Origin: a virus
Reading direction: 5' to 3' (one strand)
IMG/VR virus record: IMGVR_UViG_3300032820_000066
Location: 1-31,601 of that record
Length of the DNA: 31,601 bases
In this document: positions 3,480-25,244 of the stretch, piece by piece
How the letters are laid out: each line of letters starts with the position of its first letter
Numbering within the stretch: the first letter of the stretch is position 1
The notes under the pieces: generated by a model
Told to the model about the DNA's origin: nothing
The model's input: the letters and a program-made list of their open reading frames with translations, nothing else
The model's database searches: none
Made by a program: the position numbers and the translations under genes

Positions 3480-4055
3480 CTATGTGCCAGTTGTGGATTT
3501 ATGTTCGTGCTCATTTATCATGACATTGTAGATGCAATTAGCACCTATTTCATTGCCAGGAAGCTGAGCCACCCCTAAAATCCGAAGTTGTGCCGTACCA
3601 GTACCCGTGACGTCTGAGTCAAGTTCCATACCGGATTGGCCCGATGTCGTGTTGCCCGCCGTGTCGGCGACGATTTCCGTGTTATTTCCAATTTCCGCCA
3701 CAAGAACGCCAGCGGCGTCAGTGGTGCTGTCTTCTTGAATTTGGAAAATAGCGTAGGGATCGTCACATACCAGCGCGTAACGCAACGTGGATGCAAGGCG
3801 GTGCATGGTCTCAAGGTTAGTTGCGACCGGCTCGAAAGCCACCACAACGCCTAGAAGATTTCCACCAGCGCTTGCCGCAATGCAGTCAGGTACACCATCC
3901 GTATCGGCCGAGCCACCAGAAACTACAAAATCGCCCACAAAGAGCGCTGTACCATCAGAAGCAGGAACCGAGTACCGGCGGATCTGAGCATTGTAGGCCG
4001 AGCCACTTACGTGTCCGACCAAACGTGCCCCGAAGGGCTTGTCAGGATTTGCCAT
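3480..4055 (-). CDS. Head decoration / capsid stabilisation-like protein
   Basis: 191 aa; ATG with GAGG 8 bases upstream. It begins MANPDKPFGARLVGHVSGSA and continues as a beta-rich protein (FVGDFVVSGGSADTDGVPDC, NLLGVVVAFEP, LRYALVCDDPYAIFQIQED). This is the pattern of phage proteins encoded immediately before the major capsid gene, where they usually decorate or stabilise the head. The 12-base gap to the capsid ribosome-binding region suggests co-translation. There is no signal peptide or membrane segment. The specific role is inferred from position and family resemblance. Confidence 0.65.
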   Translation of the reverse strand: MANPDKPFGARLVGHVSGSAYNAQIRRYSVPASDGTALFVGDFVVSGGSADTDGVPDCIAASAGGNLLGVVVAFEPVATNLETMHRLASTLRYALVCDDPYAIFQIQEDSTTDAAGVLVAEIGNNTEIVADTAGNTTSGQSGMELDSDVTGTGTAQLRILGVAQLPGNEIGANCIYNVMINEHEHKSTTGT

Positions 4056-7844: not shown

Positions 7845-9285
7845 AGATCACATTCCTACCCATTTCGGTTTCGCCAAACTCTTCGTAATACGCGTTATCT
7901 TCGTCCAACTCGTCTTGCGGTGTAGCGTCTTGTAAATCGTTCAACCCTAAAAAAATTACACCTAGCGAGTCCACGTCATCGTCGTGGACACCTTTATCGA
8001 AGCGTAGGAACTCATTCTGGCACCCCGCGAACCATTCGGCGTCCATGTCCCACTCAACATTATGCGCTCGCATTTCTTTCTGAAGGGGTCTCGCACGCGT
8101 GCGTTTATCTTGCGACGGTGTTTTCTTTTCAAAGTTGATGAACGAATTAGGCACGCCACGCGCCGCGCGGTCGTGCATTTCCTTACCCACAAAAGGCCCG
8201 ATCGCTTTCTCGATCTTGTCTGACTCGACAAAAAACAGTTCGGGGCTAAATTCTTCTTGGATCTCGAACAACTTGTCCATGATCTCCAAAGAGTCCCACC
8301 GGCCTTTATCTGACCACACTACTTTCTTACGACCGAACGGGTTGACCCCAATGACCTTGAACGCTGTGTTGTCCGCGCGCTGTTTTTTCGAAATCGCAAA
8401 GTCCCCACCCGCGTAGTAAATCAACGGGGTTTGGTCGCCCGGATCTAAGGGGATGAAATCGCTGCGAACAAAGAAGTTCGCGGAGCTGTCAAATGGGTCG
8501 TTCAAATACTCTTGTGAGTACAGTTCAGCCGCACCGTCCTCGACAAATTCTTGTCGAATAAAGCGAAGCCGGGTCTCGCTAAACTTTTCGGGCCACAAAA
8601 TACCCGAGAAATCGTCGAAGGACTTATGCGCTTTGAAAATTAAGTTCTCCCACGTCTTGTTCTTCAACAGTCGGTTGAGAAGCGAGTCTTCGTGCAAGAT
8701 AGTTCCGACAACTCGTATTTTTCCACCGTCTCTAAGAGACTGTTTGCAAGCGGCGAAAAACCACCGCCTAAACTTTTCTCGTCGATCTGAATTTTCGACA
8801 ATCTCATCATTTTCAAGATCGTCGCCGACGATAAGGCCGGGGCGTTTTCCTCGCCATTTTCTACCGCGGAGTTTTTGTTCTGCGCCTTTAGCCAGTATGC
8901 GGAATTGATGTCCATCTACACATTCAACAATAATGTCGGTCACGGCATCCTTAATGAAGCGCTTAAAACGTAGTAATTCTTGCAACGCTTCATTGTCTTT
9001 AATTTCGTTCTTAATGTCACCTAAGAACTCGGCCGCTTGTTCTTCCGTATCCGAGACAATAATGACATAGTCTTGTAGTCGAAAGGCCGCTTCTGCCAAC
9101 ACATATGTATGCGTTATGCTCGTACTTTTTGCGTGGTTACGTGGGGCCGCAATTGCAACTTGCGCGGCGTCGGAACCAGCACTATCCCACATTTTAAGGT
9201 GGAATTGTGGTGTTGGTTTCTTTTGGTCATAGCCCTGAGCAAGAATCGACTCAGAAAACCCAAAAATTTCGCGCCCGGTAAGCAC
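7834..9285 (-). CDS. terL: Terminase large subunit
   Basis: 483 aa; GTG start 3 bases after the stop of the 652-aa gene. The N-terminal ATPase has a Walker A-like APRNHAKST (residues 47-55), YVIIVSDTEEQAAEFL, Walker B LIVGDDLE (151-158) and the coupling motif VVGTILHEDSLL (192-203). The C-terminal RNase H-type nuclease shows GGDFAISKKQRADNTAF (Asp295), LFFVES (Glu354) and HDDDVDSL (Asp435-Asp439). It powers DNA translocation into the prohead through the portal and cuts the concatemer. It is separated from the small subunit by about 5.5 kb of accessory genes. Confidence 0.92.
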   Translation of the reverse strand: MLTGREIFGFSESILAQGYDQKKPTPQFHLKMWDSAGSDAAQVAIAAPRNHAKSTSITHTYVLAEAAFRLQDYVIIVSDTEEQAAEFLGDIKNEIKDNEALQELLRFKRFIKDAVTDIIVECVDGHQFRILAKGAEQKLRGRKWRGKRPGLIVGDDLENDEIVENSDRREKFRRWFFAACKQSLRDGGKIRVVGTILHEDSLLNRLLKNKTWENLIFKAHKSFDDFSGILWPEKFSETRLRFIRQEFVEDGAAELYSQEYLNDPFDSSANFFVRSDFIPLDPGDQTPLIYYAGGDFAISKKQRADNTAFKVIGVNPFGRKKVVWSDKGRWDSLEIMDKLFEIQEEFSPELFFVESDKIEKAIGPFVGKEMHDRAARGVPNSFINFEKKTPSQDKRTRARPLQKEMRAHNVEWDMDAEWFAGCQNEFLRFDKGVHDDDVDSLGVIFLGLNDLQDATPQDELDEDNAYYEEFGETEMGRNVICGY

Positions 9286-9288
9286 CCG

Positions 9289-11247
9289 TTACCCGGCCTG
9301 CGGCACTTGCCCTCGATAGACCGAATACCGGTCGGGTCTACTTCCACCGCCGCGGGTCACCGTCGGTTGGAAGAACGCCTGTGGCGGCGCCACTGCGGAA
9401 CCCCCGCCGCTTGCGCTTGCGCGGAGTAGTGCTAACAAAGCCTCGTCCTCGTTTGACCCGAAATCGGGTTGATCAAACCTGATCGTGAGTCTGCCCCCCT
9501 GACCAGTGCCCTGACCAGTGCCCTGACCAGTGCCCTGACCAGTGCCCTGACCAGTGCCTATGCCCGTGCCCGTGCCCGTGCCCGTGCCTGTGCCTGTGCC
9601 TATGCCCGTGCCCGTGCCTAAACCACCAAAACCACCGCCTATGAGATCGCCTGCTACAAGTGAATTGGCTGTAGTTGTAGCTGGCGACGTATCGCCCGCG
9701 AGGCCGTTCGCGACCGCACCGCTTGGATCTCTGGAATCGACAATAGAAGTCTCCAACGCGGCTATAGCCGCCGCGAGTAAAGACTCCGCAGCCCCACTAA
9801 GCCCCCCACCGGATGCCTCGCTGCCCGTTTCCGTTGCTGCGAATGAATCCTCCGCTCCGCCACCGGACGTCCCCGGAAGCATATCTATCTGGCCGCTCTC
9901 GACTACTCCGCCGGGTTGAATAACATCGCCACTCAACGTTCCTGTTGCTGCTGCGAGTGAATCCTCCGCTCCGCCACCGGGCGTCGACAGAGGCATATCT
10001 ACAAACCCGCTCTCGACTACTCCGCCGGGTTGAATAACATCGCCATTCAACGTTCCCGTTGCTGCGAGTGAATCCTCCGCTCCACCACCGGGCGTCGACA
10101 GAGGCGTATCTACATACCCGCTCTCGGCTGCTTCGTCCTCGGCTGCTTCGTCCTCGGCTGCTTCGTCCTCGGCTGCTTCGTCCGCTACCTCTTCCTCTTC
10201 CTCTTCCTCTACCTCTACCTCTTGGACGGCATCATCAGGGCTTACGGTTAACGCGGTGCGCCCGCCGGGTGTTGTATCAGTACTTATATCAGCATCAAGT
10301 TCGGGAGCCTCCTCATCGGGGCGCGAAGATATGGAAGTATCGTAGTCGAGAGGATTGACACCCGGAGGGAGTACATTTGTAAAATCATATTGAGTCCCGC
10401 TATCGACTGTTCCGCTCTCAACTACTCCACCCTCTTGAACGACGTCACCGCCGCTATCGGTATTCAATAAACTGCCTGTTGTTGCCTTCAGCCCAAGTTT
10501 TACTGAATTAGGTAGTGGCAGTGCGTCAATGGCGGTATTTGCGGCGAACTGCGCTGCTGTGCCCCCAACGAACGATAGCCCGGCGGTCAGTACTCGAAGA
10601 ACTCCTTCAAGGGGGCCAAGGCCACTATCTTGATTTTCCTGAAGGTAGTTTGCTGTGTTTTGAACGAACGTAAATAAATCATTGGCGAGTTTTGGGTTAT
10701 CACTGAACGCTTTATCTATCGCGGCCAACGCGTCCTCTTCTGAGTCGAAAAGGTCAGCGATATTTGATGAGTTAACGATCCGGTTTCCATCACCGAAATA
10801 CTGCCCCCAAAACCCTTGGTTCAGAAGCTCTGTGCCTGGCCCCCTACCACCTGTGATTCGCTTAAGCCCGCCAATCGCAACCGGGTTCGCGTTTCTTCTT
10901 GGCAGTCCGCGAGCAGTTTCAGCCGCAATAACATTGGTTAGCTGATCTCGATTGACCGCCTCTCTTAACTGATTAGATGAATATGTGTTTCCAAAACCGC
11001 GCTCGCCGGTATACACATACGGAGTACCGTCGGCGTTCGTGGCGTAATAATTGGTTCTACCACTTCCTAGCCCAGATGCTCCATGCCCTTCGTAATACGT
11101 CGGGGACTTCGCGTTCGCTTCTTTCAAAGCGTATGCGTACAGGACTTCTTGACGCATGAGCTGCTTGATGTTTTCAGCAGTAACAGTCTCGGAAACACCG
11201 TTGGCGTTTACAAAATTAAACCCATGACGTTTTAGTCTGCTGCCCAC
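9289..11247 (-). CDS. 652-aa low-complexity repeat protein, possibly virion-internal
   Basis: GTG start with GGAGG 10 bases upstream. Residues 1-~270 are ordinary: EVLYAYALKEANAKSPTYYE, NQGFWGQYFGDGNRI, then a hydrophobic segment VLRVLTAGLSFVGGTAAQF. After that it is built of repeats: a Val/Glu run and four EDEAA units (~360-380), three ~37-residue units each carrying a PGGGAED(S/F)-type core and GDVIQPGGVVESG (~380-500), then Gly-Thr dipeptides and five GTGQ units (~575-605). The C-terminus RGGGSRPDRYSVYRGQVPQAG is unique again. The position beside terL in the late block suggests a virion or ejection protein. I do not recognise a family. Confidence 0.7.
   Translation of the reverse strand: MGSRLKRHGFNFVNANGVSETVTAENIKQLMRQEVLYAYALKEANAKSPTYYEGHGASGLGSGRTNYYATNADGTPYVYTGERGFGNTYSSNQLREAVNRDQLTNVIAAETARGLPRRNANPVAIGGLKRITGGRGPGTELLNQGFWGQYFGDGNRIVNSSNIADLFDSEEDALAAIDKAFSDNPKLANDLFTFVQNTANYLQENQDSGLGPLEGVLRVLTAGLSFVGGTAAQFAANTAIDALPLPNSVKLGLKATTGSLLNTDSGGDVVQEGGVVESGTVDSGTQYDFTNVLPPGVNPLDYDTSISSRPDEEAPELDADISTDTTPGGRTALTVSPDDAVQEVEVEEEEEEEVADEAAEDEAAEDEAAEDEAAESGYVDTPLSTPGGGAEDSLAATGTLNGDVIQPGGVVESGFVDMPLSTPGGGAEDSLAAATGTLSGDVIQPGGVVESGQIDMLPGTSGGGAEDSFAATETGSEASGGGLSGAAESLLAAAIAALETSIVDSRDPSGAVANGLAGDTSPATTTANSLVAGDLIGGGFGGLGTGTGIGTGTGTGTGTGTGIGTGQGTGQGTGQGTGQGTGQGGRLTIRFDQPDFGSNEDEALLALLRASASGGGSAVAPPQAFFQPTVTRGGGSRPDRYSVYRGQVPQAG
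9497..9618. repeat. Tandem 12-bp and 6-bp coding repeats
   Basis: Five perfect copies of CCCTGACCAGTG (9497-9556) are followed by about ten CC(C/T)(G/A)TG hexamers to 9618. They encode the GTGQ and GTGTG tracts of the 652-aa protein. Such arrays expand and contract by slippage without changing frame, since 12 and 6 are multiples of three. Confidence 0.9.
9834..10120. repeat. Three 111-114-bp tandem coding repeats
   Basis: Three adjacent units, offset by 114 and then 111 bp when the shared CCGCTCTC is used as marker (9893, 10007, 10118). They differ by a few substitutions and one codon deletion. They encode the 37-38-residue repeats of the 652-aa protein. Confidence 0.85.
10124..10183. repeat. 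Four 15-bp tandem coding repeats
   Basis: Four perfect copies of TCGGCTGCTTCGTCC encode the EDEAA units in the middle of the 652-aa protein. Identity at the third codon positions shows recent amplification. Confidence 0.9.
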
Positions 11248-14822: not shown

Positions 14823-15323
14823 TCAATCCTTGACCAGTTCGCCATCAATCGTGCGTGCTTCAAGCTCGCGACCGATCGCACCGAATTGATCGAGCATTGC
14901 CGCCAGTCGACCATCAAGCGCTGTCGTCGTGATAGACGTAGGCTGATTGCTCGCTATTTGCCGCTTATCAAACATTATCGCCATTAATGTGCCTGCGTCG
15001 CGCGCGGACACTGGAACGCGCTGTACGGTCTTGTCGACGACCTTGTAGTCGCCGTATTCGAGCCGATCTTTGACCTCGCGGAACGATTGTTCGATCACGT
15101 CGTCGATCTGCGCGCGGATCTTGTCAGTTGTTTCATTGCGTAATGATGCTGAAAATTCATCCCACCATTCAGTCTCACGTTTCCAAGCGCTTAGCGTAGT
15201 CTCCGGGATACCTGTAGTTTCCGACACTTTCGACATCACGCCTACAACCAAATACAGCGCTACGGCGTGGCGTTTTTCGCTATCTGTATATGTGGTGTGT
15301 TGTGGCGTGATCGGATTGCGCAT
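14823..15323 (-). CDS. terS: Terminase small subunit-like protein
   Basis: 166 aa; ATG start without a strong ribosome-binding site. Residues ~12-55 form a helix-turn-helix (DSEKRHAVALYLVVGVMSKV, then GIPETTLSAWKRETEWWDE), as in small terminases that bind packaging sites. A helical oligomerisation part follows (IDDVIEQSFREVKDRLEYGD, VPVSARDAGTLMAIMFDKRQ). The SARDA...IMFDKRQ block is frequent in small terminases. It recognises phage DNA and hands it to TerL (7834-9285). It is unusual in being transcribed upstream of the main late promoter and far from terL. Confidence 0.72.
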   Translation of the reverse strand: MRNPITPQHTTYTDSEKRHAVALYLVVGVMSKVSETTGIPETTLSAWKRETEWWDEFSASLRNETTDKIRAQIDDVIEQSFREVKDRLEYGDYKVVDKTVQRVPVSARDAGTLMAIMFDKRQIASNQPTSITTTALDGRLAAMLDQFGAIGRELEARTIDGELVKD

Positions 15324-15340
15324 ATATTTCGATTAAATGC

Positions 15341-15369
15341 TTGTTATTCAAATCCCATTCGTTTATGGT
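15341..15369 (+). promoter_or_regulatory. Candidate sigma70 promoter for the small-gene block
   Basis: TTGTTA (15341-15346), 17-base spacer, TATGGT (15364-15369); each box matches 4 of 6 consensus bases. The predicted start is near 15376. The leader carries GGTGGC-AAA-GCCACC and CCGGG-CGCTAA-CCCGG hairpins (15366-15396). Moderate evidence only. Confidence 0.4.
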
Positions 15370-15420
15370 GGCAAAGCCACCGGGCGCTAACCCGGCCAAT
15401 AACCAAATCGGAGACCACAT

Positions 15421-16140
15421 ATGTCAACAACACTACCGGCCATATTATGGCGAGGTCCGTCTCAATTAGACGGCAAACCGATCATGCTAGTTGCCACACA
15501 CAACAGCCAAAATCCTAAAACTGGCGATATCGTACAAACCTGGATCTTGCGCGATGATATCGCACCGCATCACGCGATCCATACTGGCGACGACGCTAGC
15601 GTGTGCGGATCTTGTCCGCTCCGCGGCGAAATCGTCAACGGCCGTACCACGCACCGCGCATGCTACGTCCAGACTCACAACGCACCGCGCTCCATTTTCG
15701 CCAAGCATACGCGCGGCGGATATGCCGAATTGTCGATCACGCAAGCGCGGGAAGCACTGGCCGGGCGCGTCGTTCGGCTCGGCGCCTACGGCGATCCCGC
15801 CGCGGTACCGATCGCCGTATGGGACCGAATAATGCGCGACACTGTCGCCCATACCGGATATACGCATCAATGGCAGCGTTTTTCCGCGATCGCGCGCTAT
15901 TGCATGGCGTCGGTCGAAAGCGAAACGCAAGCCGCAAAAGCGCACGCGCGCGGTTTCCGGACCTTCCGCGTCGGTCTCGGTCGCACCAAAACCGAGGCAG
16001 TGTGCCCCGCCAGCCATGAAGCAGGCCGTAAACTAAACTGCGCGCAATGCCTAGCGTGTAGTGGTCGCACAGGTCGCCGTACTGCTGACATTGTTATTGC
16101 ACCGCACGGCAACGGCGCCAAATACGTTACAGCCGCGTAG
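15421..16140 (+). CDS. Conserved Cys-rich phage protein, first gene of block B
   Basis: 239 aa; ATG with GGAG 8 bases upstream. The protein has clustered cysteines: CGSCPLR (62-65), CYV (81), CMAS, then CPASHEAGRKLNCAQCLACSG near the C-terminus. This suggests zinc or iron-sulfur binding. Other conserved-looking blocks are GGYAELS, VVRLGAYGDPAAVPIAVWDRI, YTHQWQRF and SVESETQAAKAHARGFRTFRV. It matches a widespread uncharacterised phage family (I believe DUF7227-like, from memory). The function is unknown. It is the only gene of the block not preceded by the repeated hairpin cassette, so it may be the original promoter-proximal gene. Confidence 0.65.
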   Translation: MSTTLPAILWRGPSQLDGKPIMLVATHNSQNPKTGDIVQTWILRDDIAPHHAIHTGDDASVCGSCPLRGEIVNGRTTHRACYVQTHNAPRSIFAKHTRGGYAELSITQAREALAGRVVRLGAYGDPAAVPIAVWDRIMRDTVAHTGYTHQWQRFSAIARYCMASVESETQAAKAHARGFRTFRVGLGRTKTEAVCPASHEAGRKLNCAQCLACSGRTGRRTADIVIAPHGNGAKYVTAA

Positions 16141-16141
16141 G

Positions 16142-16230
16142 GACGCATCCAGGTATAACGCATCCGTGCGGTGCGTTATCCCGGGCAGCGACCCCGACAC
16201 CGAAATCAACCTAAACTGGAGACACTGAAA
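16142..16230 (+). repeat. Intergenic hairpin cassette copy 1
   Basis: Begins GACGCATCCAGG, core stem TAACGCA/TGCGTTA around TCCGTGCGG, then CCCGGGCAGCG and the leader ending CTGGAGACACTGAAA directly before ATG 16231. The outer stem is imperfect in this copy (GACGC against GCGAC). Leader type 1 (CGACACCGAAATCAACC). Confidence 0.92.
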
Positions 16231-16434
16231 ATGGACGACGCAATCTACCGCATCACCAACGTCGAAGATGGAACCGCGGCTTGTGTGTATCTTAACTCTG
16301 ACGGCGCGCGCTTTAACGTTGTGCTTCGCGACACTGACTGTGACGAAACGATACGCACGATCATCGTAGCGGACTACGCAAGAGCGACCGCAATCGCCGA
16401 CAGCGTCGCCGCGTTAGCTAAAGCCGACGACTAG
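16231..16434 (+). CDS. Unknown 67-aa acidic protein
   Basis: ATG 16231, 9 bases after the GGAG of the conserved leader; upstream in-frame ATG/TTG codons lie within the hairpin cassette and are rejected. The sequence has an alpha/beta look: IYRITNVEDGTAACVYLNSD, ARFNVVLRD, TIRTIIVADYARATAIADSV. Two Cys (residues 18 and 37) do not form a motif. The last 20 residues are an Ala/Asp-rich helix. No family is recognised. It is likely a small host-interaction or regulatory protein of the kind phages encode in such blocks. Confidence 0.6.
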   Translation: MDDAIYRITNVEDGTAACVYLNSDGARFNVVLRDTDCDETIRTIIVADYARATAIADSVAALAKADD

Positions 16435-16435
16435 A

Positions 16436-16525
16436 GACGCATCCAGGTATAACGCATCCGTGCGGTGCGTTATCCCGGGCAGCGTCCCGAAACGAAACTT
16501 AAAACCAAAATTGGAGACACTAAAA
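16436..16525 (+). repeat. Intergenic hairpin cassette copy 2
   Basis: Outer stem GACGC/GCGTC, core stem TAACGCA/TGCGTTA, loop TCCGTGCGG; leader type 2 (CGAAACGAAAC) and TTGGAGACACTAAAA before ATG 16526. Confidence 0.92.
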
Positions 16526-16789
16526 ATGAAATTTAAAACGATCACAGAATGGGTCGATCTAAACAACAATAGGGGCAACAAGTTTCTCGAATGCGTAAAC
16601 TTCGACGATTTCGAGGCGGCACGGCGGCTCGCCGAATCGGAATGTCGGTGGGAGTGCACGCTGGAAGCTGTTGTCGTTTGTGCCACATCGAACAAAGTAC
16701 TGTGGTCGAGTACCGGCGATTACATCTCCATCCATCACCCGGGCGCATACTACCAACCGCATCCGGTGGGCGAATCGTATTGCAGTTAG
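16526..16789 (+). CDS. Unknown 87-aa protein
   Basis: ATG 16526 directly after the conserved leader. The sequence begins MKFKTITEWVDLNNNRGNKF and continues with ECVNFDDFEAARRLAESECRW, ECTLEAVVVCATSNKVLW and YISIHHPGAYYQPHP. It has four Cys but no regular spacing. It is probably a small alpha/beta domain. No family is recognised; the cassette-type leader on both sides supports expression. Confidence 0.6.
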   Translation: MKFKTITEWVDLNNNRGNKFLECVNFDDFEAARRLAESECRWECTLEAVVVCATSNKVLWSSTGDYISIHHPGAYYQPHPVGESYCS

Positions 16790-16878
16790 GACGCATCCAG
16801 GTATAACGCATCCGTATCGGTGCGTTATCCCGGGCAGCGTCCCGACACCGAAATCAACCTAAACTGGAGACACTGAAA
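16790..16878 (+). repeat. Intergenic hairpin cassette copy 3
   Basis: GGACGC/GCGTCC outer stem, core stem TAACGCA/TGCGTTA with a one-base-longer loop (TCCGTATCGG), leader type 1, CTGGAGACACTGAAA before ATG 16879. The length change is confined to the loop, as expected for a selected stem. Confidence 0.92.
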
Positions 16879-17148
16879 ATGACAGACAACCTTACTACAC
16901 CATCGATCGAACTGCTGCGACTACTCGCAGAAGATGCGATCAACTGGGGCGGCACTCCCGTCTACGGCCATAACGTGCAAAGCGATCACGAACGAAACGG
17001 CAACCTAACTGATCTCAAGAAAAAAGGACTCCTCGCCACCGATGACGAAATCATGCACGGCGAGCGAATTGTTTGGGTCCACTTTACCGCCACGGGTAGA
17101 AAATTTATCAAGGACACATTCAGTATCGACATAGAAGCAATGAGCTAG
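16879..17148 (+). CDS. Small winged-helix-like protein
   Basis: 89 aa starting at ATG 16879. Residues 8-85 look like a winged helix: SIELLRLLAEDAINWGG (helix 1), NGNLTDLKKKGLLAT (recognition helix region), then a strand pair DDEIMHGERIVWVHFTATGR (wing) and a final helix FIKDTFSIDIEAM. The phrase LxxLKKKGLL...WVxFTxxGR is typical of MarR/wHTH folds. It may bind DNA or only use the fold for protein contacts. No closer family is recognised. Confidence 0.55.
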   Translation: MTDNLTTPSIELLRLLAEDAINWGGTPVYGHNVQSDHERNGNLTDLKKKGLLATDDEIMHGERIVWVHFTATGRKFIKDTFSIDIEAMS

Positions 17149-17149
17149 A

Positions 17150-17241
17150 GACGCGATCAGGTATAGCGCATCCGTGCGGTGCGTTATCCCGGGCATCGTC
17201 CCGAAACGAAACCACAAACTAAACTAGGAGACACTGAAAAA
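17150..17241 (+). repeat. Intergenic hairpin cassette copy 4
   Basis: GACGCGATCAGG start, core stem TAGCGCA/TGCGTTA (one G-U pair), ATCGTC end, leader type 2, TAGGAGACACTGAAAA before ATG 17242. Its flanks match copies 5 and 6 while its core matches copy 7: a mosaic. Confidence 0.92.
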
Positions 17242-17766
17242 ATGGACAACAAAATCATCACTCAAGTGACAATACACCACGCCAACTATAAAGCGCTCAC
17301 GCGCGAAAGCCGCGCGGATATTAGGGACGGCGACATCGGCGCGATACTCGTAAATTGGCCACCGTTCAACCCTGAAACCCGCCGAACCGTCGAGGACATA
17401 CCACTAGATCGCTTTAGTGGATACTACCCGGTCGCGCGATTTGAACTCATCGACGACGCGGCGCCATTCCACCCCACGTTCGAGATCCTGGAATACGCAT
17501 TTTCGCGAACGAATAGCGTCGATCGCGCCTGGACTGATCGTTGGGCGGATAACGTCATTGCCTTTAACGGTCACACTGCGCATCGGTCGACTAGCGTTGG
17601 CGACGTGATCGTGATCGATAACGGGCTACCGCAATCCGGCCGTTTTGCAGTCACGCCGATCGGCTTTAGTGAATTGCCGAGGTTAAGCAGTCTCGACACG
17701 TACATGATCGCCAACTCGCGCAAATCAGGGCAACCCGTGACAATTAAGGGCGTCACCTACGCTTAG
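17242..17766 (+). CDS. YodL-like protein
   Basis: 174 aa from ATG 17242. The N-terminal part contains IHHANYKALTRESRADIRDGD and LVNWPPFNPETRRTVEDIPLDRFSG. The C-terminal part reads EYAFSRTNSVDRAWTDRW, then NGHTAHRSTSVGDVIVID and GRFAVTPIGFSELP. The block HRSxSVGDVIxID followed by an aromatic/Gly-Phe end is characteristic of the YodL domain, often found in antirestriction-type or mobile-element proteins. I rate that resemblance as moderate. The activity is unknown. It is encoded in the hairpin-cassette block with one cassette on each side. Confidence 0.5.
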   Translation: MDNKIITQVTIHHANYKALTRESRADIRDGDIGAILVNWPPFNPETRRTVEDIPLDRFSGYYPVARFELIDDAAPFHPTFEILEYAFSRTNSVDRAWTDRWADNVIAFNGHTAHRSTSVGDVIVIDNGLPQSGRFAVTPIGFSELPRLSSLDTYMIANSRKSGQPVTIKGVTYA

Positions 17767-17857
17767 GACGCAATCAGGTTTAGCGCGTCGGCTTCGGCGC
17801 GCTAAGCCGGGCATCGTCCCGAAACGAAACCACATAACCAAATTGGAGACACTGAAA
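17767..17857 (+). repeat. Intergenic hairpin cassette copy 5
   Basis: GGACG/CGTCC outer stem; the core stem changed to TTAGCGCG/CGCGCTAA with CTTCGG in the loop, so both arms changed together. Leader type 2, TTGGAGACACTGAAA before ATG 17858. Confidence 0.92.
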
Positions 17858-18397
17858 ATGAAATATCCCGACACGAAAATTGAAAGCGCGTGCGCCATCA
17901 AGGACGTCCGCCAGGCGCTGCAACAACCGCACTATGATGCGATACACGATCGACTCGTATCGACCGACGGCAGTATTTTAGCAGCGCTACCTGTAGTGTA
18001 CCCGGGCGCCCCCGGCGTATCCGGCGCCGTGCCGATCGACGCGATAAAGCACGCGCGCAAAACAAAGCTGCGCGGCTTCGATCCCGCGATCGACGCAACC
18101 GATCCGGACGTTGTATCGGTTAGCGGCGCGACCTTCACCCGCCCGCGCGACGTGCAATTCCCGGATTATCAGAAAGTGATCGTAGACAAAGCGGTCGACA
18201 CTCCGGATATTTGCATCGACGCGGCGCTGTTGAAACGGCTCGCCGATGCACTGCACGATCGCAATAGTAAAGATCGCCGAGTCAGTCTGTACCTAGCGCG
18301 AAACACCGACGGCACTGTCGACACGCGCGGACCTATCCGCGTGGAAGCGGCGGACCCGGACCGGCTTGGTCTGATCATGCCGTGTCGCATCGACTAG
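17858..18397 (+). CDS. Divergent sliding-clamp-like protein
   Basis: 179 aa from ATG 17858. The layout resembles phage beta-clamp-like proteins: AIKDVRQALQQPHYDAI, RLVSTDGSILAALPVVY, GAVPIDAIKHARK, then VQFPDYQKVIVD (the FPDY-x-VI block seen in clamp-fold families), ICIDAALLKRLADAL, RVSLYLAR, and a terminal PIRVEAADPDRLGLIMPCRID. E. coli beta clamp ends in a similar MPMRL. At 179 aa it is half the normal clamp length, so an oligomer would be needed to close a ring. If correct it could tether the family A polymerase at 28307-30274. Identification is from pattern memory only. Confidence 0.5.
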   Translation: MKYPDTKIESACAIKDVRQALQQPHYDAIHDRLVSTDGSILAALPVVYPGAPGVSGAVPIDAIKHARKTKLRGFDPAIDATDPDVVSVSGATFTRPRDVQFPDYQKVIVDKAVDTPDICIDAALLKRLADALHDRNSKDRRVSLYLARNTDGTVDTRGPIRVEAADPDRLGLIMPCRID

Positions 18398-18398
18398 C

Positions 18399-18488
18399 GG
18401 ACGCGATCAGGTTTAGCGCGTCGGCTTCGGCGCGCTAAGCCGGGCATCGTCCCGACACCGAAATCAACCTAAACTGGAGACACTGAAA
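18399..18488 (+). repeat. Intergenic hairpin cassette copy 6
   Basis: GGACG/CGTCC outer stem, core stem TTAGCGCG/CGCGCTAA as copy 5, but leader type 1 as copies 1 and 3, CTGGAGACACTGAAA before ATG 18489. Confidence 0.92.
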
Positions 18489-19382
18489 ATGAGCAAAACA
18501 TTCGATCCTAATAACCCGTTCGCCGATCTAGACACCGGCGAGTTCGACGGCGAACTCGCCGTCCCGGATGCACCGATCCGCGCGTTCCCGGACCCGGACA
18601 GCCCGAACGCCCCTAAACCAAAATTTGAAGGTGAGCGGCACGCGTGCGAAAAGTGCGACGGCTCCGGCGTCGTAACCTGGGGTTATCGATACGTACGCAC
18701 TGGCAAGTGCTTTAAATGCAATGGGTCCGGCTTTTTCAAGACGTCGCCCGCCGCACGTCGCGAGGCGCGAATCCGCCGCGCGAACAACAAAGTACGCAAA
18801 GCCGATAAGTGGTTCGCGGCGCATCCTGAGATCACTGCCTGGATGCTTCAGAGCGCGCCCACGTTTGACTTCGCGCAGTCATTGCACGACGCCGTAGTCC
18901 AGTACGGATCGCTCACTGACGGGCAACTCGCCGCAGCTGAGAAGTGTGTAGCGAAGGTCGCGCGGTTCAAAGCCGAACGCGACGCGCCCCGCACCGCGGA
19001 TACCCAGGTCACTTGGGCTGCAACACTGATCGGCGCTTTCGATACCGCGCGCGCTACCGGCCTCAAACGGCTGCGGCTGATCATCGGCGATCTGACGTTC
19101 AGCCCGGCGGCGCCGGGATCGACAAACCCCGGGTGCTTGTACGTTAAAGACGGCGCGCAGTATCTTGGCAAAATCACCCCGGCGGGTGGCTTTTTCAAAG
19201 TACGCGAATGCACGCCGGAACACGTCGCCGAGCTTGAAAGTATCGGCGCCGATCCGCTAGCGGCCGCGCTATTACACGGGCAACAAACCGGGCAGTGTTC
19301 CTGCTGCGGTCGCGAATTGACGAACCCGGACAGCATCGAGCGCGGCATAGGCCCGATCTGCGCCGCGCGATGGGGATGGTAA
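18489..19382 (+). CDS. DnaJ-type zinc finger plus DUF6011 protein
   Basis: 297 aa from ATG 18489. The N-terminal ~45 residues are acidic and Pro-rich. Residues ~53-83 have CEKCDGSGVV, a spacer, and CFKCNGSGFF, the two CxxCxGxG halves of a DnaJ central zinc finger. The middle is helical (ITAWMLQSAPTFDFAQSLHD, LAAAEKCVAKVARFKAERD), followed by a beta part (LRLIIGDLTFSPAAPG, GCLYVKDGAQYLGKI). The C-terminus GQCSCCGRELTNPDSIERGI then GPICAARWGW is a clear DUF6011 zinc-binding motif. Such multi-zinc proteins occur widely in phages and actinobacteria; the function is unknown, probably nucleic-acid or protein binding. Confidence 0.72.
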   Translation: MSKTFDPNNPFADLDTGEFDGELAVPDAPIRAFPDPDSPNAPKPKFEGERHACEKCDGSGVVTWGYRYVRTGKCFKCNGSGFFKTSPAARREARIRRANNKVRKADKWFAAHPEITAWMLQSAPTFDFAQSLHDAVVQYGSLTDGQLAAAEKCVAKVARFKAERDAPRTADTQVTWAATLIGAFDTARATGLKRLRLIIGDLTFSPAAPGSTNPGCLYVKDGAQYLGKITPAGGFFKVRECTPEHVAELESIGADPLAAALLHGQQTGQCSCCGRELTNPDSIERGIGPICAARWGW

Positions 19383-19472
19383 GACGCATCCAGGTATAGC
19401 GCATCCGTGTGGTGCGTTATCCCGGGCAGCGTCCCGAAACGAAAACACAAACTAACCTAGGAGATACCGAAA
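19383..19472 (+). repeat. Intergenic hairpin cassette copy 7
   Basis: GACGC/GCGTC outer stem, core TAGCGCA/TGCGTTA with a G-U pair, loop TCCGTGTGG, leader type 2 ending TAGGAGATACCGAAA before ATG 19473. Confidence 0.92.
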
Positions 19473-19844
19473 ATGTTAAACGGCGAAAATGTAAAATTAT
19501 TTGATGTATTAGTACCATTCGCGGATTTCGAACCCGACATCCCCGCCGCAGATTTAGCACGCTTTGCAAAAGCGACCGACTACGAGGTGTTCGACGTCGA
19601 CGGTGATCAATTCGCGGAAGTCGTCAAAACCGCCGAAACGTCGGCGGATTTTATCGAGAGTTCAAGTCACTGGCGCGAGCGTACACCCCCAAAACACGTA
19701 ACGATCGACGGCTTGCCCGTCGTCGCCTGGGCATCCGTCCAGGTACGGCGCGGCGACACACGACAACCGCTATCGGTCGTCGACTTCGGCAACTGGCGCC
19801 TGTCGGTCGACGTCGATCTGGCAAATTGGTGGGACCAGGACTAG
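19473..19844 (+). CDS. Unknown 123-aa acidic protein
   Basis: ATG 19473 after the GGAGATACCGAAA leader. It is acidic and rich in Asp/Val: LFDVLVPFADFEPDIPAADL, DYEVFDVDGDQFAEVVKT, SSHWRERTPPKHVTIDGLPV, VDFGNWRLSVDVDLANWWDQ. The C-terminal half is beta-rich. No family is recognised. The acidity and small size resemble phage host-takeover or DNA-mimic proteins, but there is no direct evidence. It is followed by the perfect hairpin at 19856-19882 in place of the standard cassette. Confidence 0.6.
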   Translation: MLNGENVKLFDVLVPFADFEPDIPAADLARFAKATDYEVFDVDGDQFAEVVKTAETSADFIESSSHWRERTPPKHVTIDGLPVVAWASVQVRRGDTRQPLSVVDFGNWRLSVDVDLANWWDQD

Positions 19845-19855
19845 CAGCCCAAACC

Positions 19856-19882
19856 CCGGCGCGTAAATTTACAGCGCGCCGG
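19856..19882 (+). terminator. Degenerate block-B hairpin (perfect 8-bp stem)
   Basis: CCGGCGCG (19856-19863) pairs with CGCGCCGG (19875-19882) across an 11-base AT-rich loop. It replaces the cassette hairpin at the equivalent intergenic position. No T run follows, so it may stabilise RNA ends rather than terminate. Confidence 0.6.
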
Positions 19883-19911
19883 ACCTTTAACTAAAATCGG
19901 AGAACACGAAA

Positions 19912-20103
19912 ATGAAAACCAAACGTTCGATGAAGCTCAGGACTTGCAATGAGTGTGAGTCGGAAATAAACAAAGGCGATCAATACGGGCAACGGTCAAA
20001 GCGGATCGGCCAAACGGGGATGGCCTCTTACGACGGTACTGTTCGTAGCTGGGAGCCGTACTACGTGAAGGTAGACGTTTGTGCCGTCTGCGCCGCGCGG
20101 TAA
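19912..20103 (+). CDS. Small zinc-ribbon protein
   Basis: 63 aa; ATG with GGAGAACACGAAA leader. Two CxxC pairs, CNEC (residues 12-15) and CAVC (58-61), frame a beta-rich middle (INKGDQYGQRSKRI, PYYVKVDVCAVC), forming one zinc ribbon. Similar tiny proteins are common in phage early regions and often bind nucleic acid or host proteins. Nothing shows the target. Confidence 0.65.
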   Translation: MKTKRSMKLRTCNECESEINKGDQYGQRSKRIGQTGMASYDGTVRSWEPYYVKVDVCAVCAAR

Positions 20104-20109
20104 AGAAGC

Positions 20110-20140
20110 GCCCCCGGCGTGCGCTAACACGCTCGGGGGC
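20110..20140 (+). terminator. Long GC-rich hairpin
   Basis: GCCCCCGGCGTG pairs with CACGCTCGGGGGC: twelve base pairs with one bulged T and a CGCTAA loop, the same loop as in the hairpin at 15381-15396. The following bases are TGTCGCGG, not a T run, so termination would need another factor. The rest of the 20104-20217 gap holds only a TATACT box and the next leader. Confidence 0.6.
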
Positions 20141-20217
20141 TGTCGCGGCTCACAATCGGAGGAGATGAGCCCCGCGTGATCGAATTATACTCTAAATCAA
20201 TCTAGGAGATCGAAACA

Positions 20218-20439
20218 ATGTCTAAAAACACCCACGGCGGCAGGCGCCCCGGCGCCGGTCGCCCGACGATCGACGGCGTGAAACGCGTGCAGCGTAATAT
20301 CGTCCTGCCGAAAACGTTGGCCGATCGGATCAAGCACGTCGCAAAACAGACTAAGCTGAGTCATTCCGAAGTTGTTGCACAAATGATCGCGCGCGGCTTC
20401 GATCAACTCGATCGCGAAACAGGAAACGTCCCAGGGTAA
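20218..20439 (+). CDS. Ribbon-helix-helix regulator with basic GRRPGAGRP arm
   Basis: 73 aa; ATG with AGGAG 9 bases upstream. Residues 7-16 GGRRPGAGRP are a minor-groove-binding arm seen in many phage RHH proteins. Residues ~25-60 (RNIVLPKTLADRIKHVAKQT, KLSHSEVVAQMIARGFDQL) give the strand-helix-helix of an Arc/MetJ-type fold. It probably binds DNA as a dimer and regulates phage genes. It is the last gene of block B and its stop lies inside the convergent palindrome. Confidence 0.75.
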   Translation: MSKNTHGGRRPGAGRPTIDGVKRVQRNIVLPKTLADRIKHVAKQTKLSHSEVVAQMIARGFDQLDRETGNVPG

Positions 20440-20459
20440 CTAAATACCCGTATTTAGTT
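20438..20459. terminator. Bidirectional terminator-like palindrome between convergent genes
   Basis: AACTAAATAC-CC-GTATTTAGTT: a 10-bp perfect inverted repeat containing the stop codons of both the RHH gene (plus) and the Rz1-like gene (minus). The short T tracts are weak, but the position between converging operons fits a two-way terminator. Confidence 0.65.
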
Positions 20460-20723
20460 ATCTGACGCGCACACAGCCGCATAGGCTTCGTTGTGCGCGA
20501 CGATCTGCTCTTTGTCCGCGCGCGTTAAACCCGAGAGATCCCCGGTAAGATAAATAGGATCGGCGAATGCGCAATCTGCGCTAGTCGTCGTCGTTTCCCG
20601 CTTATCTCGTTGGAAACTATAAAATGTCGAGCCCAAGGCTGCGCCCGTTTGCAGAACTTCTAGGGGGACGCAACCGATCGTCAAGCTGACCGCTATCAAG
20701 CCCACGCACACTGCGCTTAGCAT
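20454..20723 (-). CDS. Rz1-like outer-membrane spanin lipoprotein
   Basis: 89 aa from ATG 20723, nested partly in another frame inside the Rz-like gene. The N-terminus MLSAVCVGLIAVSLTIGC is a lipoprotein signal ending in a lipobox (LTIGC, Cys18). The mature part (VPLEVLQTGAALGSTFYSF, then a Thr-rich stretch and two more Cys) is short and periplasmic. A GTG at 20789 would add a 22-residue basic tail before the signal and is rejected. With Rz it should fuse inner and outer membranes in the last step of lysis of a Gram-negative host. Confidence 0.75.
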   Translation of the reverse strand: MLSAVCVGLIAVSLTIGCVPLEVLQTGAALGSTFYSFQRDKRETTTTSADCAFADPIYLTGDLSGLTRADKEQIVAHNEAYAAVCASDN

Positions 20724-25184: not shown

Positions 25185-25244
25185 CGGTAACAACCGGTAA
25201 CAACCGGTCGCAACCGGTCGCAACCGGTCGCAACCGGTAACAAC
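25185..25244. repeat. Six tandem 10-bp repeats (operator/iteron array)
   Basis: CGGTAACAAC x2, CGGTCGCAAC x3, CGGTAACAAC x1, head to tail with no gaps. The period of 10 bp puts every copy on the same face of the helix. The array starts at the predicted transcription start and ends 21 bases before the first ORF. It is the most likely binding site of the divergent Cro/YdaS-like protein or of a replication initiator. Confidence 0.95.

Follow-up and report, generated by a model that had tools for sequence, protein, structure and literature searches.

Why should a phage place one and the same short sequence between a stop codon and the next start codon, seven times in succession? The question is raised by the virus record IMGVR_UViG_3300032820_000066, whose 31.6 kb, referred to here as the window, belong to a tailed phage with relatives of its capsid, portal and terminase proteins. 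On the plus strand of the window, seven successive stop-to-ATG gaps between eight consecutive genes (16141-19472) are each filled exactly by one cassette of about 90 nt, which consists of an imperfect hairpin of 51-52 nt beginning 0-2 nt past the stop codon, followed by a leader of about 38 nt that carries GGAG before the ATG. The answer favoured here, with about an even chance of being right, takes the cassette for an intercistronic RNA module, in which the hairpin would act as a processing or insulating point and the leader as a standard ribosome-binding sequence. A first-pass annotation had described the array, and all seven copies are present in the seven gaps, save that the GACG of the sixth lies at 18400, one base beyond the value it gave.

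The copies are distinguished by two types of hairpin core, A and B, and two main leader alleles, x and y. Cassette 1 (16141-16230; 98.6 bits) combines core A with leader x, its hairpin occupying 16142-16192 and its leader, with the Shine-Dalgarno (SD) sequence, 16193-16230, before the open reading frame (ORF) at 16231-16434. Core A is joined to leader y in cassette 2 (16435-16525, hairpin 16436-16486; 110.8 bits), before the ORF at 16526-16789, and to leader x in cassette 3 (16790-16878, hairpin 16790-16841), before the ORF at 16879-17148. Cassette 4 (17149-17241, hairpin 17150-17200) has core A with a G-U pair, an outer stem like that of copies 5 and 6, and leader y ahead of the ORF at 17242-17766. 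Core B appears with leader y in cassette 5 (17767-17857, hairpin 17767-17818), before the ORF at 17858-18397, and with leader x in cassette 6 (18398-18488, hairpin 18400-18451), before a gene for a DUF6011 protein. Cassette 7 (19383-19472, hairpin 19383-19433) again has core A with a G-U pair, together with leader y and the SD sequence GGAGATACC, and precedes the ORF at 19473-19844. Each hairpin starts with GACG at the first coordinate given for it, and each copy extends right up to an ATG. When a 16-base motif taken from the 3' arm was sought in the window, six of the seven copies matched, all on the plus strand, and its reversed control matched nothing; copy 1 escapes the motif through an indel there. 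Elsewhere in the window, many neighbouring genes on one strand overlap or lie a few bases apart, and in a rough screen of the virus loci examined the window ranked first, with nine consecutive hairpin-bearing stop-to-start gaps as compared to three in the runners-up.

The hairpin is built from an outer stem that opens GACG(C), a middle stem of CAGG and CCGGG, and a core of ten pairs. The A-G mismatch that the first-pass annotation had noted opposite the CCGGG strand is constant, and together with the hairpin shape it is kept in all seven copies. Its account of the core was likewise correct: TAACGCA/TGCGTTA gives way to TTAGCGCG/CGCGCTAA in copies 5 and 6, with a G-U pair in copies 4 and 7. Its outer stem, GACG(C)/(G)CGTC, holds overall, but copy 1 has GCGAC with an A-A mismatch and copies 4-6 have GACG/CGTC only; similarly, length changes do fall in the loop, but the leader varies in length as well. 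Over 18 consensus pairs in the seven copies, pairing is retained in 99.2% of cells, as compared to 24-44% in slid controls. Three core pairs differ on both sides between types A and B, one of them by way of the G-U intermediate of copies 4 and 7, and under a simple model, devised after the data were seen, the probability that all ten core pairs are kept after 3+3 random substitutions, three per arm, is 0.0016. The core fold is predicted in every copy, with a fold z-score of -2.88 or below in four of the seven: the values are -3.68, -3.91, -3.64, -2.88 and -2.62 for copies 2, 3, 5, 6 and 7, and -1.32 and -0.46 for copies 1 and 4, where the outer stems are damaged or altered.

Several observations weigh against an RNA module. 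The outer stem of copy 4 is weak, and this copy folds no better than its own shuffles. The covariation comes from seven paralogous copies of one genome and is mostly one change common to copies 5 and 6; it rests on paralogues because no sequence homologue of the cassette was found in the collections scanned. Some relatives with a DUF6011 gene have sigma-70-like promoter repeats in the same gap instead. Lastly, the type A minus strand folds about as well as the plus strand, so strand-specific folding failed as proof of a sense RNA, and the strand is argued from the position of the hairpin between stop codon and SD sequence, which points to sense-strand RNA, and not from energy.

The similar pairing of the type A minus strand also suits a site that acts at the level of DNA, where each copy might serve as an operator, as a promoter read by a polymerase that the phage modifies or encodes, or as some other dyad recognized by a phage protein, and transcripts would begin at or close to each copy. 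An inverted repeat could be the site of a protein dimer, and the promoter cassettes repeated before genes in some DUF6011 relatives offer a precedent. However, the G-U intermediates break the dyad while keeping RNA pairing, only some 38 nt lie between the end of the hairpin and the ATG, and sigma-70 hexamers were found on none of the seven copies, leaving the sigma-70 form of the promoter hairpin that the first-pass annotation had entertained without support. A site of this kind is thus judged unlikely, if by no means far-fetched. An intrinsic terminator, a GC-rich hairpin followed by a T-run, was rejected, as no cassette has a T-run and the tails read CCCGAAACG or CCCGACACCG; the terminator scan thereby agrees with the earlier opinion that ordinary termination is improbable.

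The closest described repeated, start-proximal cassettes are the PeSLs of T4, the HGTV-1 motif and the SAS/ESAS of cluster K mycobacteriophages. The promoter-stem-loop (PeSL) cassettes of T4-type phages, like the HGTV-1 motif, are repeated intergenic stem-loops that flank small ORFs and are thought to drive shuffling (PMC3950731, PMC4503421). A PeSL has an early promoter and a terminator-like loop; the present cassette shows neither, having the stem-loop and no sigma-70 site, a phage-specific promoter being possible; of the gain and loss of genes associated with PeSLs, the array has internal mosaicism, and no close relative was found. The SAS/ESAS is a conserved element directly before start codons, about half of the copies having an upstream inverted repeat, and those who described it found little to support hairpin formation by the ESAS in mRNA (PMC3203893). 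In the cassette, by contrast, changes are compensated; the sequences are unrelated, and the leader ends in GGAGACACTGAAA, or a close variant of it, ahead of the ATG, and not in the GGGATAGGAGCCC that defines SAS/ESAS before start codons. The cassette is thus set apart from these elements by its lack of a recognizable promoter, its compensated pairing and its full-length shared leader, and is a member of no one family.

The leader, which the first-pass annotation had regarded as fixed, instead exists as two main alleles, with the SD segment reading GGAGACACTAAAA in copy 2 and GGAGATACCGAAA in copy 7. Its G content is low (0.12-0.17), and over positions -40 to +5 the predicted unpaired fraction is 0.66-0.78, as compared to 0.34-0.62 at the other plus-strand starts tested, which weakly favours open leaders on the strength of folding predictions. 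The core is identical in copies 5 and 6 and likewise in copies 1 and 2, the leader is identical in copies 1, 3 and 6, and the four-gamete test yields dozens of violations among pairs of sites. Because hairpin and leader alleles assort freely, the copies have recombined with, or converted, one another, such that core and leader have separate histories. The array proteins, when compared with one another, revealed no similarity, so it is the cassette that multiplied and not a unit of gene plus cassette, and duplication of such a unit was rejected. A coding extension of the upstream genes was also set aside, since the copies differ by indels whose lengths are not divisible by three.

Such exchange might itself be the main role of the cassette: as a short stretch common to all sites, it would allow small genes to enter, leave or change places in the array, and the expression signals would be passengers. 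The four-gamete violations between hairpin and leader, exemplified by copy 6 with the core of copy 5 and the leader of copies 1 and 3, are in keeping with such a device, as are the mutually unrelated genes; a pair-preserving substitution, however, is unexpected of a mere homology tract, and no close relative was found to show gene gain or loss, leaving this possibility highly improbable. Small ORFs of no assigned function, each followed by an imperfect inverted repeat, also call to mind the attC recombination sites of integrons. The core of attC is a conserved AAC/GTT within RYYYAAC/GTTRRRY. At the corresponding position copies 1-3 have AAC but copies 4-7 have AGC, which contradicts attC sites as substrates of a standard integrase, and the shared leader and SD sequence belong to the next gene; integron-like sites therefore deserve next to no credence.

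Could the cassette be a known RNA that has gone unrecognized? No Rfam family matched the cassettes at its gathering cut-off or even at an E-value of 10, and single-family searches of them with hammerhead II, twister-P1, twister-sister, hatchet and HDV-F-prausnitzii gave no match. The hammerhead core CTGANGA is absent from 15301-20500, and the best matches to the type II model RF02276, at about 11 bits, lie elsewhere in the window. Nothing was returned by blastn of the cassette against GenBank phages and plasmids. Exact-pattern scans of IMG/VR gave 8 matches to the 3' arm, 38 to the SD leader and 9 to the 5' arm, all of which were inspected and look like chance; in 85k genomes the 3' arm was matched 36 times, each match standing alone, as chance would lead one to expect, and these were not inspected individually. 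Scans of this type would miss diverged homologues. A covariance model (R1) run on DNA-polymerase, capsid, portal and DUF6011 relatives produced nothing significant. The earlier statement that no described element has such a sequence thus holds across Rfam, GenBank phages, plasmids, the IMG/VR exact patterns, the 85k genomes and the loci of relatives.

Relatives do, however, have ribozymes at the corresponding position. When relatives were searched de novo for elements repeated ahead of start codons, the search led to a 55-kb virus record (IMGVR_UViG_3300010366_000015, G040), the capsid of which is 59% identical to that of the phage, with five tandem type II hammerheads between consecutive small genes (L296, minus strand, contig 15934-18850). 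Five successive gaps there read GGCGAAAC, stem, GTC, stem, CTGANGATGCC, and four of the five hammerheads score 43.6-49.7 bits in Rfam, with the fifth at 34.1 bits against a cut-off of 37. A motif screen flagged nine of 80 DUF6011 loci, and on inspection the DUF6011 gene of five (L318, L325, L329, L344 and L345) proved to be closely preceded by a hammerhead core or one resembling it, in the gap that in the phage itself holds cassette 6. L325, L344 and L345 exceed the Rfam cut-off just upstream of the gene, L329 falls below it at 24.7 bits, and L318 is recognized by motif and fold only; L325 and L344 look alike, and thus may not be independent. Fifty viral records that are unrelated, or related loosely, contained no hammerhead at an E-value of 0.01, although no control genome gave a match in that search either. 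As a difference of three in 50 from none in 50 is not significant alone, it is the shared position that carries the weight. Since relatives use either hammerheads or sigma-70-like promoter leaders at the equivalent gap, the common theme of these gaps, as read from their sequences, would be independent expression reached by different means.

Other loci contain further repeated leaders. In L069, L074 and L083, a TTGAC...ATCAGCAACGGAGAC leader (sigma-70-like promoter and SD sequence) is repeated before several genes, in some cases with a GGGGCTTCGGCCC hairpin, and L381 has three copies, at 3878, 5315 and 7039, of a promoter-like element, CTTTCCGCTTGACATAAAATC, before genes. L329 contains two near-identical strong hairpins at 8254 and 9319 (GGCTGGGCC..GGGCTCAGCC) with a CCCACTGTTTAAAC leader before genes; these are apparently not hammerheads and represent another hairpin-leader cassette.

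Given where the hammerheads lie, the cassette could be an undescribed self-cleaving ribozyme. Its position matches that of the type II hammerheads both before the DUF6011 gene and between genes of the capsid relative, and new ribozyme classes have earlier been found near genes associated with known ones (PMC6154101). The array nevertheless lacks the CTGANGA core, the cassettes went unmatched in the ribozyme-family and Rfam searches described above, and a single long hairpin with no evident pseudoknot is unlike the known small ribozymes, so that self-cleavage is distinctly unlikely. Nor does the cassette belong with the type II hammerheads, which are defined by a CUGANGA/GAAA core and an NUH cleavage triplet: it lacks the core and scores nothing with RF02276. 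The resemblance is one of arrangement, for the tandem hammerheads of (pro)phage genes, which cut polycistronic RNA in vitro (PMC3088659), are also repeated, structured intercistronic RNAs in polycistronic transcripts, and occupy the same gap in relatives of the phage.

A further parallel is found in the early region of phage T7, where hairpins (R0.5, R1, R1.1 and R1.3) lie between the stop codon and SD sequence of successive early genes; these intergenic hairpins are RNase III sites. Stop codon, hairpin, leader and SD sequence follow in the same order as in the cassette, the predicted folds are similar, and several of the T7 hairpins share sequence (AAGGTC..GGCCTT) within one polycistronic message. 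With 18 consensus pairs and mismatches over 51-52 nt, the cassette resembles the hairpins between T7 genes, which are irregular duplexes some two helical turns long, and cleavage may be proposed by analogy. The sequences, however, are unrelated, T7 has no constant 90-nt unit whose leader is common to the copies, and promoters are also present in some T7 gaps. The cassette is concluded, by analogy, to be parallel in function to the T7 RNase III sites, the tandem hammerheads and the T4 PeSL cassettes, with homology shown to none of them.

As an RNA module, the cassette would work in two parts. The imperfect hairpin directly after each stop codon would come first, and on a long plus-strand transcript would be a point of processing or protection, at which a host nuclease, for instance RNase III, would cut or, at the least, exonucleases and ribosome run-on would be blocked. 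The open, G-poor leader with its standard SD sequence would then give the next gene its own ribosome entry, such that each accessory gene would yield a separately stable, separately translated message. The single long transcript, the cut, the enzyme and the translational benefit are all inferred. RNA processing or stabilizing stems had been the first option of the first-pass annotation, and it is the best-supported reading, strengthened because relatives carry hammerhead ribozymes in the same position. The mosaic make-up of the leaders, the hammerheads of relatives and the likeness to T7 and PeSL elements had escaped that annotation. Alternatively, the hairpin might be the site of a phage RNA-binding protein, a translational operator or antitermination site that coordinates the array, as the A-G mismatch and hairpin shape conserved in all copies would allow; with the SD sequence outside the hairpin and predicted to be largely open, and with no candidate binder identified, this is quite improbable.

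The proteins of the genes that the cassettes separate mostly belong to no matched family. Upstream of the array, the gene at 15421-16140 matches PHROG 2554 (unknown function; 2.4e-74). Within the array, all on the plus strand, the 67-residue ORF at 16231-16434 has no family match, the 87-residue ORF at 16526-16789 no significant match, and those of 89 (16879-17148), 174 (17242-17766) and 123 residues (19473-19844) no match. The 179-residue ORF at 17858-18397 matches PHROG 3007 (labelled RusA-like; 1.2e-11), and the 297-residue DUF6011 protein is encoded at 18489-19382, the gene before which other phages carry hammerhead ribozymes. Flanking gaps also fold. The plus-strand gap after the array (19845-19911; z-score -3.10) has a hairpin of unrelated sequence, CCGGCGCGT/GCGCGCCGG, followed by the same kind of GGAG leader, with a weak covariance-model match at 19859-19911 (17.1 bits); the gap at 20104-20217 has a hairpin unlike the cassette in sequence before a similar SD leader; and the gap at 15324-15420, before the gene at 15421, folds into a hairpin of another sequence. 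Elsewhere in the window, a tandem 10-bp repeat (CGGTAACAAC/CGGTCGCAAC) at 25185-25244, directly upstream of a small gene, is possibly an operator or iteron, and several short tandem repeats at 9497-10223, within the gene at 9289-11247, encode low-complexity G/T-rich and acidic stretches.

If the cassette is an RNA module, the array would be a clear and highly repeated example of a single modular RNA unit through which many small phage genes of unknown function are expressed uniformly and independently, and the sequences are evidence that sites have exchanged parts of this unit. The presence of hammerheads at the same gap in relatives suggests that phages separate cistrons with interchangeable RNA parts, and the cassette hairpin and the other gaps before DUF6011 genes are places to seek new processing elements or ribozymes. 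Should self-cleavage prove true, an undescribed RNA would cut a phage operon into single-gene messages seven times over.

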